64,000 nt of DNA, from the NCBI GenBank assembly GCA_902581145.1, contig CACHNE010000009.1, positions 1 to 64,000 on the forward strand. Reading direction: 5' to 3'. The notes under the pieces were generated by a model. That model saw only the letters and a program-made list of their open reading frames with translations. It had not been told where the DNA came from and made no database searches. This document shows, piece by piece, positions 23,702-37,191 of this stretch (the first letter of the stretch is position 1; each line of letters begins with the position of its first letter). Both the position numbers and the translations under genes were made by a program. The stretch comes from an uncultured Bacteroidota bacterium. GTDB lineage: Bacteria > Bacteroidota > Bacteroidia > Flavobacteriales > Flavobacteriaceae.

Positions 23702-26700
23702 TTATATTTTTATCCTGTTATCATCAGAGTTTGTATCAATTAACTTGTTGTATGGATCAATACCAACCTCAACGGGTTTTTTATCAAGGATAATTGATAG
23801 CTTATTGTTAATTGAGGTTATTTTATGTTTTTTCAAATAAAGCTCTTCGTCCTCATTTTCTCCAAAAACTCCAACATCAATATAGTCTTCTAAGAAAACT
23901 GAATACTGAGGTTTTTTCATTTCTTCGGACTGGTAGTAAATTGAGTCTACTTCTCTGTCTCCATAAAACATTTTCCCTTTTTCATCATTTCTATATTTAC
24001 TAACATTAAACTCTAAATCAAGCTGAAACCTTCCGTTTTCAAGCTCTTTAGATTTAGCAGAGAGAACCCTGTTTTCATATAAAGTTATTGTTTCAAACAT
24101 GTCCCTGATGATATAACTAAGTGAGTCGGGGGTAACCTTTTTTAACTCATCAACAAGTTCGATAGATGTTGTATACGGGGGCTCTTGAAAAGCTGTTTTT
24201 TTAACATATGCAGAAAGAGCTTGGTTTAAGGTCTTTTCTCCAATATAATCGCTTAATGCATAAAATATAAGAGAACCTTTTTGATAATGAATATAACCTT
24301 GCCCGTCATTATACATTAATGCATTCTCTCGTTTTCTTTCAAATGTCCTGTCAGTAAGATACGTGTCTAGTGAGCGCTTTAAAAACTTTCTCATTTTGTT
24401 TTTTCCATTTACACTCTCAATTATTTTAAGTGATACATACTCAGATAAACTCTCAGACAACATTGTTGACCCTAGCACATCTGCCCCAATTACTTGGTGG
24501 GCCCACCACTGATGAGCAATTTCATGCGCGGTTACATAAAAAGGGTAATCATTGCCACCTTCCTCGGAATCATCAACATCTGCAATAAATCCTATAGTTT
24601 CCGAAAAAGGAATTGTATTTGGAAATGACTGTGCAAATGTTCCTGCAGTTCTTGGAAATTCAATAATTCTTGCCTGTTTGTGTTGATATGGGCTGAAGTT
24701 TTCTGAGCAATACTCTAGTGCAGCTTTCATACCTTTCATCATTCTATCGAGATTATATTCGTGTCCTTTATGATAATAAATTTCAAGATTAACATCTCTC
24801 CACTTGTCTTTTAGTACTTCATACCTTGCAGAATTAAATGCGTAAAAATTTAAAATTTTACTATCCATCTTATAATGAAAATATCTTCTATCATTTTCTA
24901 GCCACTCTTTTTGAAGGTAGCCAGGAGCAATTGCAATTTGATCTTTGGAGGTGCTTACAACAGCCTCAAAGTCAATCCAGTCAGAATCTCGAGAAATGTA
25001 TGTGTTGCCAAGTGCTGAAGGATCTGATGGATGAGGTTTTAGTTCATTGGGTGGAAGGCCGTATTTTTCCCTTGTCTTATCATCTCTCAACTCTCCTCCA
25101 CTATATCCAAGAGAAGGAAATAATGTAAAATTGTTTATGAAAGTACCATTATAAACAACAGAAGAGTTGTTTCTTAGTATCGTGTTGGGCTTGTTTTTCA
25201 CAGTAAAAGCTAACCCTAGTGAATCACCAGGTTTTAGAGCTTTATCTAGCTTATAAATGTCAAAATTATACACAGTGTCTTCTAAAACCAGAGTGTTGGC
25301 ATTATCAAATTTAAATGTATTAATTGCGCTGTTATGATTTAAGAATATGCTGTCAATTGATTTCGAGCTTTTGTTTACCATAGTGTATTTTCCAGAGGCA
25401 CTAATGTCCCTTGTGCTAGGAAAAATATCAACATTAACATTTACAGAGACAATTCTTGGTTGGGCATAATTTTCAAATTTCTTATACTTTTTCTCCCATT
25501 CAACAGTCTCAATTTCCCTTTCTTTAGATGACTTTCGAATATTTAAAATATTATTTACATAATAAATGTACCCGCCAATTGAAATAAAAAGAATTGTAAA
25601 AACAGAGATAAAAAAAGGAATAACACCCTTAAACCTTTTTTTAGCAATTTTGAACTTTTCAACAACGCTTGAAACATACCCACGCTTATAAAATAAAAGA
25701 GTAAGAATGTAGAATATAATACCTAAGCATAACCAGTAAAATTTATATATATAGTACCTATTTAAGTCGGAACCATATCCATTCATATCAGAATATGAAA
25801 AACCAGGGCCTTGGCTATATTTAAAAATTGCCTGTTCAATTCCTGCTAAGTTTGTTAGCGGAATCCCAATAAAAAGAACAATCATTACAAACAGCCCTAG
25901 GTATGGATTTGGTATTAAAACTTGTATCAGGAAAGATAAAAGTGCCCAAATTATATAATATATAAGGTTAAGTGCAATTAGCTCATACAGATATAAGCCT
26001 ATTTGAAAGTCATAGTAGCCCTGATAGGTCTGAAAAATAATTCCTGAAACCAATACCAGCGATAATAACACTATTTGCATTTTGACTATTGCTAAAAACT
26101 TTGATCCATACAAAACCCAAATAGGGGTAGGAGTGGTATCAATAAGTTGGCTGATATTTGATATTCTTGATCTGTGAATTAAAAGGCCTGCGTATAAAAA
26201 TGTGCAAATGTTTATTGCTAAAGTAAATGAGTTTCCCGTCTGTAATATTCTCCAGGTTCTTGGAAGTGTTGCAGTTCCAAAAATATTACCAAGTTCAAAA
26301 AGACCTACCAGCTGAATTAATAATCCAACTAAAACAATTGAAATAAATGGCCAGCTTTTAATTATATACACGAAGTCAATGTTTGAGAGCTTCCATAATA
26401 AGCTTAGTTTTGAGCTCTTGGAAAAATTCAGATTGACAGTGGGAAGTGATATTTTGGTTATTCCACCAAAATTTGACTTGATAAATCTAGTCGAATTTTT
26501 TTTACCAAATGAAAAAGAAAATGCGTTTTGACTAAATGAAAACAATTTATATATGCCAGCAAAAATAAAGGATGCAATACTCATCCAGATGAGCCTATTG
26601 TAGACTACAATTTCTTTAATTGGGATATATAACTCGTTTTGCTCAGCTACTGTCCAATACCTTGTGTAGTAATCTAAGGCCATATCTCCAAAAGGATCTA

Positions 26701-27334
26701 GTAATGCAGAGATAAGCCTGTTCTCCTGCTCCTGACCAAAGCTGACCAGGAACCCTTGAAGAACTAAGAGTATAATTACAAATATAAATCCCGCAGATAT
26801 ATTTCTTGTGAATGTAACAATTCCAAAGACAATTGCTCCGGTGAAAATCATGTTTGGAATTATATATATAACATATATGTCAAAGTATGGCTTTAGCTCG
26901 AAATCTGTTAACAGGTCAGGGTTAACCCCCGGTAAATTAAAGCCACAAGCAATTCCCAAACCGACAGTAAAAACAATAACATTAACTATCAACAATCCGC
27001 TTAAAAACTTAGCCAATAAGTATTCAAGTTTCGTAAATGGGTATGAATATAATATACTATGCATATTGCTCTTAAAGTCTCTATATACGGAAACCCCTAT
27101 AATGGAAGGATATAAGAAAATTATTAGAGAACTAACAGCACCAAATAAACCACCTAATGCATATGGTGAGTTTACAATTAGTGAAGAGCCAACGGTTACA
27201 GTAACAGCATCAAATATGCCAGCTGCTGAACCCGAAATCATAAGGGAGATAAAAAAGAAAATGAGGCAGTAAATATAAAATGCAGGCCTGTAAATCCAAT
27301 ACCTTATCTCATTTATAAAAATATTTTTAAACAT
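23702..27334 (-). CDS. ABC-2 permease fused to M1-family aminopeptidase
   Basis: This 1210-residue protein joins two parts. Residues 1 to about 590 hold two ABC-2 type membrane bundles, each with six or so hydrophobic segments. The rest is an M1 peptidase on the outer face, with the zinc motif HEIAHQWWAH (first His about residue 937), an upstream TAGTFAQSFPN stretch and a downstream glutamate in LSESLSEYV. Such permease-peptidase fusions occur in Bacteroidota and other phyla, always with an ATPase; the physiological substrate is not established. The partner ATPase gene lies 7 bases upstream in the same operon. Confidence 0.92.
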   Translation of the reverse strand: MFKNIFINEIRYWIYRPAFYIYCLIFFFISLMISGSAAGIFDAVTVTVGSSLIVNSPYALGGLFGAVSSLIIFLYPSIIGVSVYRDFKSNMHSILYSYPFTKLEYLLAKFLSGLLIVNVIVFTVGLGIACGFNLPGVNPDLLTDFELKPYFDIYVIYIIPNMIFTGAIVFGIVTFTRNISAGFIFVIILLVLQGFLVSFGQEQENRLISALLDPFGDMALDYYTRYWTVAEQNELYIPIKEIVVYNRLIWMSIASFIFAGIYKLFSFSQNAFSFSFGKKNSTRFIKSNFGGITKISLPTVNLNFSKSSKLSLLWKLSNIDFVYIIKSWPFISIVLVGLLIQLVGLFELGNIFGTATLPRTWRILQTGNSFTLAINICTFLYAGLLIHRSRISNISQLIDTTPTPIWVLYGSKFLAIVKMQIVLLSLVLVSGIIFQTYQGYYDFQIGLYLYELIALNLIYYIIWALLSFLIQVLIPNPYLGLFVMIVLFIGIPLTNLAGIEQAIFKYSQGPGFSYSDMNGYGSDLNRYYIYKFYWLCLGIIFYILTLLFYKRGYVSSVVEKFKIAKKRFKGVIPFFISVFTILFISIGGYIYYVNNILNIRKSSKEREIETVEWEKKYKKFENYAQPRIVSVNVNVDIFPSTRDISASGKYTMVNKSSKSIDSIFLNHNSAINTFKFDNANTLVLEDTVYNFDIYKLDKALKPGDSLGLAFTVKNKPNTILRNNSSVVYNGTFINNFTLFPSLGYSGGELRDDKTREKYGLPPNELKPHPSDPSALGNTYISRDSDWIDFEAVVSTSKDQIAIAPGYLQKEWLENDRRYFHYKMDSKILNFYAFNSARYEVLKDKWRDVNLEIYYHKGHEYNLDRMMKGMKAALEYCSENFSPYQHKQARIIEFPRTAGTFAQSFPNTIPFSETIGFIADVDDSEEGGNDYPFYVTAHEIAHQWWAHQVIGADVLGSTMLSESLSEYVSLKIIESVNGKNKMRKFLKRSLDTYLTDRTFERKRENALMYNDGQGYIHYQKGSLIFYALSDYIGEKTLNQALSAYVKKTAFQEPPYTTSIELVDELKKVTPDSLSYIIRDMFETITLYENRVLSAKSKELENGRFQLDLEFNVSKYRNDEKGKMFYGDREVDSIYYQSEEMKKPQYSVFLEDYIDVGVFGENEDEELYLKKHKITSINNKLSIILDKKPVEVGIDPYNKLIDTNSDDNRIKI

Positions 27335-27341
27335 GAGTATA

Positions 27342-28223
27342 TTAATTAGTTTTGTCCTCCTTTAGAGCGATAAAATAAACATCATCCAATTGAGGATCTG
27401 CTTTTTTGAATCCAACAGCAGGTTTTTTTTCAGAAAAAACCCTAATGTTAATTGTATTATCAACATTATAATTGGATGAAAGAATATTATATTTTTTCTC
27501 AAACTTTTCTAAATCACTTCTTTTAACAGATTTAGTCCATATTTTACCAAGAATCTCTTTAGTTGACTTTGCAGGTTTAACATGCCTTAAAATTTTCCCC
27601 CCATTCATTATCGCCATATCATTACAAAGCTCTTTAACATCTTCTACAATATGCGTAGAAAAAATAACCGTACAATTTGTTCCAACCTCTCTAAGGACAT
27701 TTAAAAACCTTTGCCTTTCAGCAGGGTCTAATCCAGCCGTTGGCTCATCCACGATTATAAGTTTAGGGTTGTTTAGTAATAGTTGAGCAATTCCAAACCT
27801 TTGCTTCATCCCACCGGAATATCCATCTACATTTTTATTCCTTACTTCATAAAGATTTGTAATTTCTAGTAGTTCTTGAACTAATTCACTTCTTTCTTTC
27901 TTATTCTGAATTCCCTTTAATGAAGCTAAGTAATTCAAAAGCTGTTCAGCAGACATCTTAGGATAAACACCAAAAGATTGCGGAAGATATCCTAACACCT
28001 TTCTTAGTGACAGCTTATCATTTAGAACATCAATCTCATTAAAATGGATTTTACCTTCATCAGGAGATTGTATCGTGGCAATTGTTCGCATTAAGGTGGA
28101 TTTTCCTGCACCATTTGGTCCAAGTAAGCCAAACATACCGACACCAATCCTTAAGTTAACATTGTCGAGAGCTTTTACTTTGTTAGAATAAGTTTTTGTT
28201 AAGTTTTCTACAATTAATTCCAT
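27342..28223 (-). CDS. ABC transporter ATP-binding protein
   Basis: This 293-residue ATPase has Walker A GPNGAGKST (residues 35-43), a Q-loop near PQSFGVYPK, signature YSGGMKQRFGIAQ, Walker B LIIVDEPTAGLD and H-loop STHIVED. It is the nucleotide-binding partner of the permease-M1 fusion encoded 7 bases downstream. This ABC-2 drug or lipid export subclass usually works as a dimer with the membrane protein. The ATG at 28223 heads the operon and is divergent from accB across the A/T-tract region. Confidence 0.95.
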   Translation of the reverse strand: MELIVENLTKTYSNKVKALDNVNLRIGVGMFGLLGPNGAGKSTLMRTIATIQSPDEGKIHFNEIDVLNDKLSLRKVLGYLPQSFGVYPKMSAEQLLNYLASLKGIQNKKERSELVQELLEITNLYEVRNKNVDGYSGGMKQRFGIAQLLLNNPKLIIVDEPTAGLDPAERQRFLNVLREVGTNCTVIFSTHIVEDVKELCNDMAIMNGGKILRHVKPAKSTKEILGKIWTKSVKRSDLEKFEKKYNILSSNYNVDNTINIRVFSEKKPAVGFKKADPQLDDVYFIALKEDKTN

Positions 28224-31945: not shown

Positions 31946-32472
31946 ATGAAAAAAAAAAATTAATTCCAGCTCTTCTGTTTTTTTTACTATTTTTTTCTAA
32001 AGAATTTTTAATTGCCCAGACAGAGGGAGCATCTTTTACCATTTATTTAATTAGACACTCAGAAAAAGACCTTTTGTCTGAAAATCAATTGGACCCACCT
32101 CTAACAACATGTGGAATAGAAAGATCTGAGTATATAGGTTCATATTTTGAAGACATCAATATTAAAAACGTTTACAGTACAAATTATTTAAGAACAATAA
32201 AAACAGCCACGCCAACAGCTTCTTCTAAAAAAATAATCATACAATATTATGACTCAAACAACTTGAAGCTTTTTTCTGAACAACTTTTAAATTCAAAACA
32301 AAACAGCTTAGTTGTGGGTCATAGTAATACAACGCCAATATTAGCTGGATTATTAACCGGAAAGGATATGAAACCTTTCAATGAAGATATATACAACAGG
32401 ATATATAAAGTTATTATCAGTCAAAATAATATGAAACTATTTGTATTTGAGACATCTTTTGATTGTAATTAA
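31946..32472 (+). pseudogene. Secreted histidine phosphatase with a frameshift in a poly-A run
   Basis: An ATG at 31946 is followed by 11 A bases (31949-31959). In that register the reading stops at once at TAA. One extra A, or two fewer, joins the ATG to a 175-residue frame. That frame has a signal peptide (LIPALLFFLLFFSKEFLIAQ) and a histidine phosphatase: LIRHSEK, later TNYLRTIKTATPTA and the second catalytic His in VVGHSNTTP. No usable in-frame start lies upstream of the signal peptide. Either the gene is broken, the A count is a sequencing error, or it is expressed by slippage. The family includes SixA-type phosphohistidine phosphatases. It lies 21 bases before the secreted dikinase-like gene. 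Confidence 0.75.
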
Positions 32473-32493: not shown

Positions 32494-35400
32494 ATGAGAA
32501 TGAGAAATTTTATATTAATATCAATTTTTTTGTTTCTTTTTCAAAACCTCAGTTTTGCTCAATTTATTACTATTGACAATTATTCGGTTAATAATCTTGG
32601 TCAAGCTCAATTATCTATTCAGGGCCAGCAAGGCAAATACTATATTCTTCACGCACAACACAACTCGGAATTTAATTGGGCAACTTCTCTTACCATTGGC
32701 TTAAATGGCACCATGATTATTTCGGAATCATCACAGGCGTATCCGCTAGAAAACTATTCTATAACAGAGCATGATATTGATAACCCAGACGATTATGATG
32801 GGGACGGAATTGATGACATTACAGAGTTTAATAACATGCCAACTAACTCACCTTTCAATTATGCGCCGGCAATTGATTTTATTGATGGATCAACTTCAAT
32901 TCCGGATGCTGAAACTTTTATGGAATTGGCAACAATAAATAATGTTGGTTGGGCCCCATTTTTAGACGATCAACTATATGTCAAGTTTGGAATTTTAGAC
33001 CGAGACACAGATCAACCTAAAGTCTATTTTATAAACAGCAACACATATACTATTCATGCTAGCTTTTGGAATGGAATAGGCGCTTCTGTTAATGGTGATG
33101 ATGCTTCTGGTGAGATTGTTTTTAACCCTAATGCTATATTGCCCTCTGGGGTTATTGGTACATACTCATTCAACTTTTCATTTGGGGATGCTTACAATTT
33201 TGAGGACACTCAAAGAACTTATGAGCTGTTAGTTGCAAGCATGCCCTTTTTACAAAACAACATGAATCATTTTATAGGCCAAGCTGATGAAAATAATCAT
33301 CTAAATAATTATGCGGATGAATTTGTGGACTCTAGATTTGATGTAGTTTTAGAAACTGATGTATTTGCTGATGTGAATTACATACCTTTCCATTTAGCAG
33401 AAGGATTTGGCTATTTTAAACACATGCAAGACTTGAATGAAATTCCTGGAAGTAGAGATATTGTATTATATGATGCTCTTCCTAATTCATTACCCAGGGT
33501 TGGTGGAATAATCACTTCAGTAATTCAAACACCGTTATCACACGTAAACCTTAGAGCTATTCAAGACAATATTCCAAATGCCTATATAGCTGATCCTTTA
33601 TCAATTAACGAAATAGCTAGCCTCTTAAATGGATATATTTACTATAAAGTTGAGAATGATAGTTATGAAATCAGGGAAGCAACACTTGACGAAGTTAATG
33701 CTTGGTATGAAGATATTAGACCAACACAGCCTCAGGTCCCAATTCGTGATCTGAGCTTTACTGACATACTACCTTTAGACGAAATTACATTTGAAATGTC
33801 AACAGGATTTGGCGCAAAATGTGCCAACGTTGCAACAATGAGGACATTTGAATTTACGGAAGGCACTATACCTAATGGATTTGGAATTCCTTTTTATTAT
33901 TATGATATATTCATGCTGTACAATAATTTTTACGAGGAAGTTCAAATAATGATTGAAAATCCAAGTTTTCAAAATGACATAAACTTTAGGGTAGATCGTT
34001 TAAAAGATTTGAGGGATGCTATCAAAACTGCTCAAATGCCTCAATGGATGCTCGATGATCTTCAAGCAATGCACGACGCCTTTCCAGAAGGAACAGCTGT
34101 AAGAGTTAGATCAAGTACGAATAATGAAGACTTGCCAGGCTTTAGCGGTGCTGGACTATATACTTCAAAAACACAACATCTTGATGAGGGTCATATCTCA
34201 AAGTCTGTAAAACAAGTTTATGCTAGTATGTGGAACTTTAGAGCATTTGAGGAAAGAGATTTTTACAGAATTGACCATTTTGCAGCAGCCATGGGATTAC
34301 TCTGCCACCCAAATTACCAGCAAGAGCAATCAAATGGTGTAGGAATTAGCATTGACCCAATTTATGACACTGAAGGAACATTTTATCTAAACACCCAGGT
34401 TGGAGAATCATTAATTACCAATCCAGACCCAAACTCTGTCCCAGAAGAAATTTTACTTTACAGAGATCCTACGCAAGGGGGCGGATATCTTGTTCTTAGG
34501 CTTTCAAACTTAGTCAATGCTGGCGAGCTTATAATGGATGATGAATACCTTGATCAAATGAGAGATTTTTTAAGCGTAATTCATGATGAATTTGCAATTC
34601 TTTATGATGTTGTTGGCCAGCAGGATTTTGCTATGGACATTGAATATAAAGTTACAGCTCAAAATCAACTAGCTATCAAACAAGCTAGACCATGGGTTTC
34701 TTTTTGGGCTGATATAAATGGTGAGTACGATTTGGCTGTCGATGCAATAATAAATCCAGAAACATCATCAGAATTGTCAGAAAACGAATTTGTAACAGTT
34801 ACTATTGCAAATTACGGATTAAACGATATGAGTGATTTTAATATTGAGCTTGTATTTGCTGATGAAATTGTTGAAACGATAACTATTACTGAGGTTATTG
34901 AGCCCTTTGAAGAATCAAATTTTCAATTTACACTCCCAGTAGATTTATCAAACAGTGGTGATTACGACATAACAGTAAACATTAGTCACCCTGATGATGT
35001 ATATGAGAATAACGATTCATTAACTATCACTGTAAGCAACATATTACAGTATGATGCTTCATTAGAAATTGAGGCCCTCAGAGTTTTATGCGGTGATGTA
35101 GTTGAAGTAGATTTGACGATTTCTAATTTAGGAGATACTACAATTAACGAAATTGAAATTGAGACAACGGTAAACGGAGTCTCGACATTAGTTAATTACG
35201 AGTCTTTCGAAATTGCATATTCAGAAGAAGAAACTATTACCGTAGTTCTTGATCAAAATATTCAAGAATCAAATGATATTTTATTAGATTTAATTTCCAT
35301 TAATGATCAAAATGATGAAAGTCCTGCCAATGATATAGTCACAACTACAACAACGCTCGATTCGCCATATGATACAATTACATTAATTATTAACCCCGAC

Positions 35401-37191
35401 AATTACCCAGAGGAAACATCTTGGAAGTTATATGACAGCACCAACAATGAAATTGTCCACACAGGGTCATTAAATTCAAATACAGAATATTATATCGAAG
35501 ACATCTGTGTAAATTTTGAATCATGTTTTACACTCGATGTATTTGACTCCTATGGAGATGGGATTTGTTGTGGATATGGAGAAGGAAATTTTATGATGAT
35601 TGATTCAGGTGGAAATGTGATTTTTGAAAATGATGGTGTTTTTGACAATTTTACACAAGAAACATTTTGTCTAGGTGAAAATGGGTGTGAAATTATAGCC
35701 GAAATTAATACTTTAAACACAAGTTCAGAGGAAGTCGATGACGGCTCCATTTCAATTTTTGTTTCATCAGGTATCGCTCCGTTTCAATATAGCATTGACG
35801 GAGGGCTAACGTATTTTGAAACAAATAGTTTTTCAGAATTATCATTTGGAAACTATGACATTTCAGTAATTGGCTCAGCTGGAGATTGTGTATTTGAACA
35901 AACTGTTCAAATTGAATTTTGTGACTTTACCAGTGTAGATGTACAAGTTACCGGGGTTCCATCAAGTACATCAACAGATGGAAGCATAGCAATAATACCA
36001 AATTCTGGCAATGGTCCTTATCAATATAGTATTGATGGTGGTCAAAACTTCTTTGAAGAGAACTTCTTTTCAGATTTGCCCTCTGGACTTTACAATATTG
36101 TGGTAAACGATTCACAAAATATATGCTCATTTGAAGATTCAGTTCGTATTGAAATTGAGTCAGTAATTATTAATGAAATTAACTATAGCTCTAGTGAAGA
36201 ATTTAATCCAGGCGATTGGTTAGAACTATATAACCCAAAATCATATCCAATAGATTTATCAGGATGGCAAATCAGAGACGAAAATAATAATCATATTTAT
36301 TATATCCCTCAATCAACCATAATTGAATCTGAAGATTTTATAGTAATTGTAAGAGACGGCACTGATTTTAGTAACTCTTTTCCGGGAATACCTTTCATAG
36401 GTGAGTTAGGGTTTGGTTTGGGAAGTTCTGACGCAGTAAGGCTATTTAATTCAGAAAGTAAACTAATTGACGAAGTTACTTATGATATCGATAATTCTAG
36501 TAATAGTTGTAATCATACTCTTAACATGATAGACTCTTACGGAGATGGCTGGAATGGAAACGCTCTAACCGTTTTAGTTAATGGTGAAACTGTATTAGAA
36601 ATGGCAACGTTTGAGAATGGATTTTCTGAGAGCATTTTCTTTGAAGCTACTCATGGCGACCCAATTCATCTAATTTGGCATGATGGTGGTTGGCCAGAAG
36701 AAGTTTCGTTCGAAATTCTTGATGGGGTTGGGAATATAATTTCATCTGGTGCACATGGAGAAACACTTGAGGGTGAAAACATTTTGGCTTATTGTTTGGA
36801 AAATGCTTCTGATTGGCCAACGTGTGCACATGCCACAGGCTTTACTTTAGAATTAATTAATCCAGAACTGGATAACTCTAATGCATTAAATTGGGATTGT
36901 ATAAATGAGTTTGGAAGCCCTAATGAACACAACATTTCAAACTTATCAGTATATACAAATTCAGATTTAAATTCTATAAAGATTTACCCTAATCCTGTTA
37001 ATAGTATACTGCATGTCAGTGGGCAAAATGAAAAATATGATATCGAAATTTATACTTTAACTGGACAGAGGCTTTATCAAGCTTTTGATACTTCGAATAT
37101 TGATATGACTTCATTTTCAAGCGGTATATATCTAATAAAAATCTCTGATCAAAACTCAATAACAACTAAAAGAGTAATTAAAGTTCAATGA
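32494..37191 (+). CDS. Giant secreted protein with glucan water dikinase-like core and T9SS signal
   Basis: This 1565-residue protein has a signal peptide (residues 1-23) and a Ca-binding DGDGIDDITEF repeat near 110. A dikinase-like core follows: VGGIITSVIQTPLSHVN with His350 as candidate phosphohistidine, then GFGAKCANVATM (about 438-450) and RSSTNNEDLPGFSGAG (about 537-553), and a terminal IKQARPW near 735. In this order the His domain precedes the ATP-grasp domain, as in glucan water dikinases. PEP synthase has the reverse order plus a C-terminal barrel, absent here. CARDB-like domains (about 750-960), two DSYGDG modules, two SprB-like repeats (about 1070-1220), a lamin-tail domain (about 1223-1336) and a T9SS sorting domain (about 1490-1565) follow. 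The substrate and ATP source are unknown. Confidence 0.85.
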   Translation: MRMRNFILISIFLFLFQNLSFAQFITIDNYSVNNLGQAQLSIQGQQGKYYILHAQHNSEFNWATSLTIGLNGTMIISESSQAYPLENYSITEHDIDNPDDYDGDGIDDITEFNNMPTNSPFNYAPAIDFIDGSTSIPDAETFMELATINNVGWAPFLDDQLYVKFGILDRDTDQPKVYFINSNTYTIHASFWNGIGASVNGDDASGEIVFNPNAILPSGVIGTYSFNFSFGDAYNFEDTQRTYELLVASMPFLQNNMNHFIGQADENNHLNNYADEFVDSRFDVVLETDVFADVNYIPFHLAEGFGYFKHMQDLNEIPGSRDIVLYDALPNSLPRVGGIITSVIQTPLSHVNLRAIQDNIPNAYIADPLSINEIASLLNGYIYYKVENDSYEIREATLDEVNAWYEDIRPTQPQVPIRDLSFTDILPLDEITFEMSTGFGAKCANVATMRTFEFTEGTIPNGFGIPFYYYDIFMLYNNFYEEVQIMIENPSFQNDINFRVDRLKDLRDAIKTAQMPQWMLDDLQAMHDAFPEGTAVRVRSSTNNEDLPGFSGAGLYTSKTQHLDEGHISKSVKQVYASMWNFRAFEERDFYRIDHFAAAMGLLCHPNYQQEQSNGVGISIDPIYDTEGTFYLNTQVGESLITNPDPNSVPEEILLYRDPTQGGGYLVLRLSNLVNAGELIMDDEYLDQMRDFLSVIHDEFAILYDVVGQQDFAMDIEYKVTAQNQLAIKQARPWVSFWADINGEYDLAVDAIINPETSSELSENEFVTVTIANYGLNDMSDFNIELVFADEIVETITITEVIEPFEESNFQFTLPVDLSNSGDYDITVNISHPDDVYENNDSLTITVSNILQYDASLEIEALRVLCGDVVEVDLTISNLGDTTINEIEIETTVNGVSTLVNYESFEIAYSEEETITVVLDQNIQESNDILLDLISINDQNDESPANDIVTTTTTLDSPYDTITLIINPDNYPEETSWKLYDSTNNEIVHTGSLNSNTEYYIEDICVNFESCFTLDVFDSYGDGICCGYGEGNFMMIDSGGNVIFENDGVFDNFTQETFCLGENGCEIIAEINTLNTSSEEVDDGSISIFVSSGIAPFQYSIDGGLTYFETNSFSELSFGNYDISVIGSAGDCVFEQTVQIEFCDFTSVDVQVTGVPSSTSTDGSIAIIPNSGNGPYQYSIDGGQNFFEENFFSDLPSGLYNIVVNDSQNICSFEDSVRIEIESVIINEINYSSSEEFNPGDWLELYNPKSYPIDLSGWQIRDENNNHIYYIPQSTIIESEDFIVIVRDGTDFSNSFPGIPFIGELGFGLGSSDAVRLFNSESKLIDEVTYDIDNSSNSCNHTLNMIDSYGDGWNGNALTVLVNGETVLEMATFENGFSESIFFEATHGDPIHLIWHDGGWPEEVSFEILDGVGNIISSGAHGETLEGENILAYCLENASDWPTCAHATGFTLELINPELDNSNALNWDCINEFGSPNEHNISNLSVYTNSDLNSIKIYPNPVNSILHVSGQNEKYDIEIYTLTGQRLYQAFDTSNIDMTSFSSGIYLIKISDQNSITTKRVIKVQ

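Follow-up and report, generated by a model that had tools for sequence, protein, structure and literature searches.

A predicted exported dikinase of Flavobacteriales, its wide family and the putative exported phosphatase encoded beside it

In plant glucan, water dikinases (GWD) the phosphohistidine-type domain precedes the ATP domain, and to our knowledge dikinases are known only as intracellular enzymes. Little is established about phosphotransfer from ATP outside bacterial cells. The GWD mechanism, as given in excerpts of PMC7569903, moves the beta-phosphate of ATP to a histidine and from there to glucan, and excerpts of PMC12892837 describe plants as pairing GWD with glucan phosphatases. 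Here, an open reading frame (ORF) of 1565 residues with an ATG start, at 32494-37191 on the plus strand, was analysed; it lies in the window, the whole 64,000-nucleotide stretch of contig CACHNE010000009.1 from an uncultured bacterium of the Flavobacteriaceae. The ORF encodes a dikinase-like protein with signals for the type IX secretion system (T9SS). What is new here is a clade-conserved gene pair, formed by an exported dikinase and an exported protein of the histidine phosphatase superfamily. No exported dikinase was described among the titles and abstract openings listed from the open-access PMC literature, with two of the result lists covered in part; this collection leaves most subscription journals and all bioRxiv preprints outside.

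The protein was found to be composed as follows.

32494..37191, plus strand: ORF of the dikinase-like T9SS protein, 1565 residues
32494..32562, plus strand: signal-peptide-like leader, residues 1-23 (...LSFAQ), by inspection and hydropathy; 77 of 80 related loci also have a hydrophobic leader at this position
32563..32829, plus strand: N-terminal beta-rich region, residues 24-112 (AlphaFold2 strands, model residues 6-71)
32830..33381, plus strand: conserved N-domain, residues 113-296 (AlphaFold2 model of this part alone)
33370..33681, plus strand: phosphohistidine-type swivel domain, residues 293-396 (fold match to 5fbu, weak GWD1_pHisD match)
33541..33543, plus strand: codon of His350, the predicted phospho-carrier (conservation)
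33811..34692, plus strand: PPDK_N ATP-grasp domain, residues 440-733, with K442, R539, E717, Q730 and R732 (Pfam, fold, conservation)
34729..35016, plus strand: CARDB domain, residues 746-841 (Pfam)
35737..35811, plus strand: SprB repeat, residues 1082-1106, the best of two stretches (Pfam)
36160..36483, plus strand: lamin tail domain, residues 1223-1330 (Pfam)
36982..37179, plus strand: T9SS type A sorting domain, residues 1497-1562 (Pfam, NCBIfam)

The protein carries both marks of a T9SS type A cargo, namely a leader (judged by inspection and hydropathy) and a type A C-terminal domain. The latter was matched by Por_Secre_tail at residues 1497-1562 (Pfam, E 7.9e-12) and by TIGR04183 (NCBIfam, E 2.3e-13, 49.9 bits against a cut-off of 23). 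SprA, a part of the T9SS, is encoded in the window's genome. The PPDK_N domain was matched with E 2.1e-20 (Pfam, 73.7 bits against a cut-off of 27), and this was the sole PPDK_N match at E<=0.001 in that genome, which measures 1.29 Mb and is 68.5% complete. No phosphoenolpyruvate (PEP)/pyruvate barrel family was detected in the protein at E<=1 (Pfam), and the PEP synthase models of NCBIfam aligned over their N-terminal part alone, the best of them ending at model position 228 of 798. The motifs TPLSHVN (with His350), RSSTNNEDLPGFSGAG at 539-554 and QARPW at 730-734 are present in the ORF. A sequence-only reading of this DNA had described a secreted T9SS protein with these first and last motifs, a His domain placed before the ATP-grasp and no PEP barrel; the leader, the sorting domain, the Pfam order and the predicted fold are in good agreement with it, and at the level of sequence the protein is confirmed as T9SS-exported with a core of the dikinase type. 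Near the end of the beta-rich region lies the stretch DYDGDGIDD, which we take to be of the calcium-binding type.

The AlphaFold2 model covered residues 24-742 and reached a mean predicted local distance difference test score (pLDDT) of 86.6, with a predicted template modelling score (pTM) of 0.64. The modelled ATP domain superimposed on rifampin phosphotransferase 5hv1 (Z 30.1, root-mean-square deviation (rmsd) 2.4, 292 residues), on PEP synthase 2ols (Z 29.8) and on PPDK 1dik (Z 23.2). The modelled His domain (293-396) resembled a segment of rifampin phosphotransferase 5fbu (residues 754-867; Z 10.4, rmsd 2.7 over 98 residues) that we take to be its His domain. The N-domain modelled alone gave a pLDDT of 88.9 and a pTM of 0.87, and it is proposed as the best candidate for the acceptor-binding part. 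Among its faint fold matches, polyphosphate kinase 1 ranks first, at a Z of 4.3 that is too low to build on, and the IP6-bound HopZ1a and PopP2 structures also appear, probably by chance (Z <=4.3). A viral fold library gave two matches at E<=0.001, to phage G Gp139 and to a PPDK-like Hyperionvirus protein, neither of which points to a function.

The catalytic residues were followed in the window protein and 80 related loci, the best 80 of 568 relatives confirmed in a scan of genome contigs (family A). K442 and R539 were kept in 81 of 81 aligned rows; E717, Q730 and R732 were kept in 80 of 80, with one row gapped, and His350 was found as 80 H and one X. The roles of the ATP-site residues are presumably those known from PPDK, of which the K22A and R337A mutants appear in the structure match list. 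The scan used two motifs that covered His350 and R539, while the conservation of K442, E717, Q730 and R732 was not conditioned by them. A second set of 17 rows was gathered by whole-genome tblastn instead of motifs; in it, 16 of 16 covered rows, the window included, keep His350 and the ATP-site residues (the partial row G314 is gapped, and of the 16 genomes fetched, 5 correspond to loci already in the first set). The sequence-only reading had proposed a search with PPDK_N, which at E<=0.01 matched all 62 core rows, and had named loss of His350 or ATP-site residues among homologues as evidence against an active dikinase; no such loss was seen in the covered rows of either set. For the fold alignment, the window was joined by 61 of 69 non-redundant loci drawn from 76 of the 80, after removal of two short loci (L057, L078) and of two for X (L079, L097); a further alignment held the window and 55 of these 61.

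Judged from its sequences, the exported dikinase-like family is wide, taking in marine Bacteroidota and some distant bacteria. Core identity to the window protein ranged from 46 to 89%. By record title, Bacteroidota account for 69 of the 80 loci (Flavobacteriales, Saprospiraceae, Chitinophagales and others), and the other 11 belong to Poribacteria (7), Verrucomicrobiota (2), Planctomycetota (1) and Chloroflexota (1, Anaerolineae). The leader of the 77 loci is of export type and precedes the mature core; the remaining three loci are truncated or frame-broken. A T9SS type A tail was found in 58 of 60 C-terminal tails tested, which came from the window and 59 of the 80 loci, 10 others being open at the 3' end and 11 having tails shorter than 80 residues. 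Ten of the 11 non-Bacteroidota loci stop at the catalytic core and L098 extends 42 residues further, so export appears to be constant and the anchor variable. The Poribacteria cores are compact, about 720 residues (L105 is an example), with a GWD-like layout. Among 149 genomes, those of the window and of relatives, the dikinase core was present in 17 at E<=1e-60.

Directly upstream of the dikinase lies the gene of the putative exported phosphatase, its stop codon 21 bases from the dikinase ATG.

31960..32472, plus strand: gene of the histidine phosphatase superfamily (branch 1) with a hydrophobic leader, by Pfam; start codon unsure
31946..31959, plus strand: ATG followed by 11 A, ahead of the phosphatase ORF, the ATG being one base out of frame

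The His_Phos_1 profile matched with E 2.4e-10 (Pfam, 40.8 bits against a cut-off of 21.7), and the catalytic-motif residues (two Arg, two His) were kept in 32 of 32 copies. Hydrophobic leaders, judged by eye, were seen in the 32 copies, some of them lipoprotein-like. The run of 11 A places the ATG at 31946 one base out of the phosphatase frame, which may reflect slippage, another or non-ATG start, or a homopolymer error; the relatives L033, L042 and L044 seem to start the gene in frame with TTG or GTG, and the start codon of L041 is clear. The phosphatase was the most recurrent neighbour, being found in 31 of the 80 loci as well as in the window, and the next widest clusters reached 7 loci (a Poribacteria set). 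Of the 31 loci, 29 have it upstream of the dikinase in the same orientation, and L059 and L079 have it downstream in opposite orientation, which suggests that the linkage outlived rearrangement. A close copy (E <=1.7e-39, the next match being 2.8e-26) was present in 13 of the 149 genomes, the window's own included, and in all 13 the dikinase follows immediately downstream. Thirteen of 17 dikinase genomes have this close copy and none of the 132 genomes without a dikinase does; only a distant relative was found in 47 further genomes. In 26 genomes reached via the loci, the 2 with adjacent genes gave strong matches, 12 gave distant matches only and 12 none at E<=1e-8. The phosphatase profile gave no match at E<=0.01 in 13 wider regions, which comprised dikinase types B and C (described below), the family A genes of L003 and of G403, and G298 and G315. 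The model of lipopolysaccharide (LPS) heptose(II)-phosphate phosphatase matched weakly (E 2.8e-5, a score of 23.8 bits with the cut-off at 142) and was not the best match; since every NCBIfam cut-off shown is failed, the phosphatase substrate is not assignable. PADLOC gave no defence match for either gene.

Other exported dikinase lineages were observed besides family A. Type B proteins measure about 630 residues and have a leader and no long tail; a single genus within the window's family supplies 5 of the 6. Type C proteins measure about 970 residues, have a leader and occur in 10 of 296 Bacteroidota genomes. In both types the His motif precedes the ATP motif. In a tree of the ATP domain, families A (19 rows: 17 of the 80 loci, the window and L003), B (6), C (8) and PpsA (13) each fell on one side of a branch, and A and B joined (97/95); because of a long-branch warning, the tree is used for the separateness of the groups only. 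A match to PF03219 (TLC ATP/ADP transporter) was found in 8 of the 10 type C genomes against 19 of 296 overall, and by coordinates the gene adjoins the dikinase in 5 of the 10. The one transporter-like protein run through Pfam, that of L117, matched PF03219 with E 4e-13 and carries HEAT repeats. This TLC-like neighbour is a possible periplasmic ATP supply for type C. The type C dikinases of L117-L120 (G118, G103, G227, G234), for example L117:4497-11550, adjoin an ORF of about 420 residues and a TLC-like protein of about 940 residues; the ORF of L117, the only one tested, is beta-lactamase2-like. At L113:11435-11989, and in L115 and L116, type B dikinases adjoin a DUF4956 gene, recognised by Pfam in L113 and as an ORF of the same size in the others. 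A distant relative on the Streptomyces plasmid L032 (NZ_CP109451.1, 4199-8879), of 670 residues and leaderless-looking, lies between ATP-grasp and MFS transporter genes, an arrangement that resembles a small natural-product cluster.

The reading that we favour, with a little better than an even chance, is that of a phosphotransferase of the PPDK/GWD type that is exported and active; in it, phosphate would travel from ATP to the phosphohistidine and on to an acceptor, and the phosphatase would be a clade-specific antagonist. The protein would be exported by Sec and, in Bacteroidota, by the T9SS. Its ATP-grasp domain (440-733) would bind ATP and pass a phosphate, presumably the beta-phosphate as in known dikinases, to His350, and the swivelling domain (293-396) would deliver it to the acceptor, for which the N-domain (113-296) would be the binding site. 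The neighbouring exported phosphatase of the window's Flavobacteriales clade would dephosphorylate either the acceptor or the enzyme itself, making surface phosphorylation reversible. As to the acceptor, the first guess is a glycan of the surface or envelope, given the GWD-like layout, the anchoring at the surface and the faint resemblance of the phosphatase to the LPS heptose-phosphate phosphatase model. More tentatively, and with the chances rather against it, the two exported proteins encoded side by side may form a surface phosphate switch, by which a Flavobacteriales polymer, in the envelope or outside the cell, would gain and lose phosphate; ATP would be taken from outside or provided by export. 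If this is true, the type C lineage with its ATP/ADP-transporter-like proteins would show one route of ATP supply for such a switch. An exported family with a phosphatase partner and a transporter-like companion would make both surface-polymer phosphorylation and the origin of the ATP directly testable.

Several points weigh against an active, phosphatase-opposed enzyme. With a whole-core pTM of 0.64, the placing of the domains relative to each other is unsure. The conservation of His350 and R539 is partly conditioned, as the scan motifs covered these residues. By its profile matches the His domain is the weakest part of the core: GWD1_pHisD on residues 293-404 gave E 0.19 and 11.8 bits, under the cut-off of 27, PEP-utilizers of Pfam had no match in the window protein, and searching the sequences of solved structures with a His-domain profile gave no match at E<=10. 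The N-domain had no Foldseek match among solved structures at E<=0.001, and no ligand or clear fold match was obtained for it (best Z 4.3). The gene pair is clade-bound, so the phosphatase is a clade-specific and not an obligate partner: with a line at 73.5% core identity, set after the data had been seen, and with enough flank defining an informative locus, it stands beside the dikinase in 30 of 35 informative loci at or above the line and in 1 of 39 below, that one being L079, which falls below because its reading frame is broken. The dikinase genomes without the phosphatase are G298, G315, G403 and G314 (gene partial), and G298 and G315 belong to the window's own genus. Among the family A loci, L102 of Dyadobacter luteus RS19 likewise has no phosphatase neighbour. 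PF03219 had no match in the window's genome and no ATP supply was found there, in line with the earlier remark that an obvious ATP source is lacking.

Four other explanations were weighed against the active phosphotransferase. The sequence-only reading had suggested a dead enzyme repurposed as a surface binding or scaffold protein, and an extracellular place without evident ATP, together with the many non-catalytic repeat domains of the tail, would suit such a role. This suggestion was not supported: the catalytic residues are invariant wherever covered, across phyla and also beyond the scan motifs, and ten non-Bacteroidota members end directly after the catalytic core, which makes a dead scaffold very improbable. 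The modification of a small molecule outside the cell (an antibiotic, a signal or a metabolite), or a ligation through a phosphorylated intermediate, is unlikely. The best fold match is indeed rifampin phosphotransferase, which acts inside cells; RIF_Ptrans_rph, PigC and RedH are among the NCBIfam matches, all far under their cut-offs, the names of the last two, prodigiosin ligases, implying ligation; and the distant Streptomyces relative lies between ATP-grasp and MFS transporter genes. However, these matches span the shared ATP domain (by fold, the His domain too) and leave the rest of rifampin phosphotransferase unmatched, and adhesive-type tails (CARDB, SprB, lamin tail) fit a surface-bound role better.

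Scavenging of extracellular ATP, by which phosphate from dissolved ATP would be loaded onto His350 and released by water or the phosphatase as a phosphorus or nucleotide harvest, is quite unlikely. The small genome of the host, the marine-looking relatives and the adjacent exported phosphatase gene are consistent with it, and dissolved ATP is, in excerpts of PMC9298688, present in seawater and used by marine microbes. Yet a two-protein route through ATP-grasp and phosphohistidine would be a costly way to hydrolyse ATP, the separate conserved N-domain suggests a specific acceptor, and many family members have no adjacent phosphatase. A true extracellular GWD, which would phosphorylate an alpha-glucan (starch or an algal glucan) and open granules for degradation as in plants, appears just as improbable as the dead scaffold. 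The likeness to plant GWD noted earlier stood for the His-before-ATP order and fell short in the profile, whose match to the window protein is below the cut-off. At a loose E<=10, GWD1_pHisD was the commonest Pfam match in the His-domain rows (11 of 17, best 6.4e-4), the rows being the window and 16 of 18 loci extracted (24 wanted), one of them of type C (~970 residues). Of 14 control genomes, 5 likewise gave sub-cut-off matches at E<=10, the window's own genome giving none, and of 62 whole-core rows just one reached E<=0.01; part of the likeness is therefore generic. PEP-utilizers, although matched in 3 of 17 rows, had the better best E (6.3e-5). The Pfam scan of the window protein gave no starch-binding or carbohydrate-binding family, with CBM45 in the library unchecked; CBM45-type domains are presumably the starch-binding domains of GWD. 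None of the 10 neighbour ORFs covered by the scan is a glucan gene. In favour of this explanation, excerpts of PMC12892837 describe GWD and phosphatases as acting in sequence in plants. A canonical PEP synthase or PPDK was rejected, because no barrel was found and the domain order is reversed.

Apart from the phosphatase, the 10 neighbour ORFs, among them biotin carboxylase, oxidoreductase, alanine racemase and thymidine kinase, gave no functional lead. Elsewhere in the window, at 23702-28223 on the minus strand, a 1210-residue protein combines an M1 peptidase part with a sub-cut-off ABC2 membrane match and adjoins an ABC ATPase gene. The adjacent exported phosphatase, the wide family, the separate N-domain (113-296) and the other exported dikinase lineages were observed here in addition to what had been read earlier.

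Compared with described systems, the neighbour phosphatase resembles branch 1 of the histidine phosphatase superfamily (SixA, Ais/PmrG) by His_Phos_1, and other models of the superfamily score slightly above the LPS heptose(II)-phosphate phosphatase model. With rifampin phosphotransferase (5hv1/5fbu), the window protein shares the ATP-grasp fold and the His swivel fold; that enzyme starts with its ATP domain and ends with its His domain, whereas the window protein is exported and runs from N-domain to His to ATP domain, and the RIF_Ptrans_rph equivalog cut-off was failed (NCBIfam, 37.8 bits against 999). PEP synthase and PPDK (2ols, 1dik) share the PPDK_N domain and its fold; in contrast to them, the window protein has no detected PEP/pyruvate barrel, has His before ATP and is exported, and family A lies apart from the 13 PpsA rows in the ATP-domain tree. 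Plant GWD1 and PWD share with it a phosphohistidine-type domain before PPDK_N and the lack of a PEP barrel. GWD is plastidial, whereas the window protein is exported, bears a T9SS tail and has another N-domain. High-resolution GWD structures are missing according to excerpts of PMC12892837, and the compact bacterial cores of Poribacteria offer a GWD-like layout.

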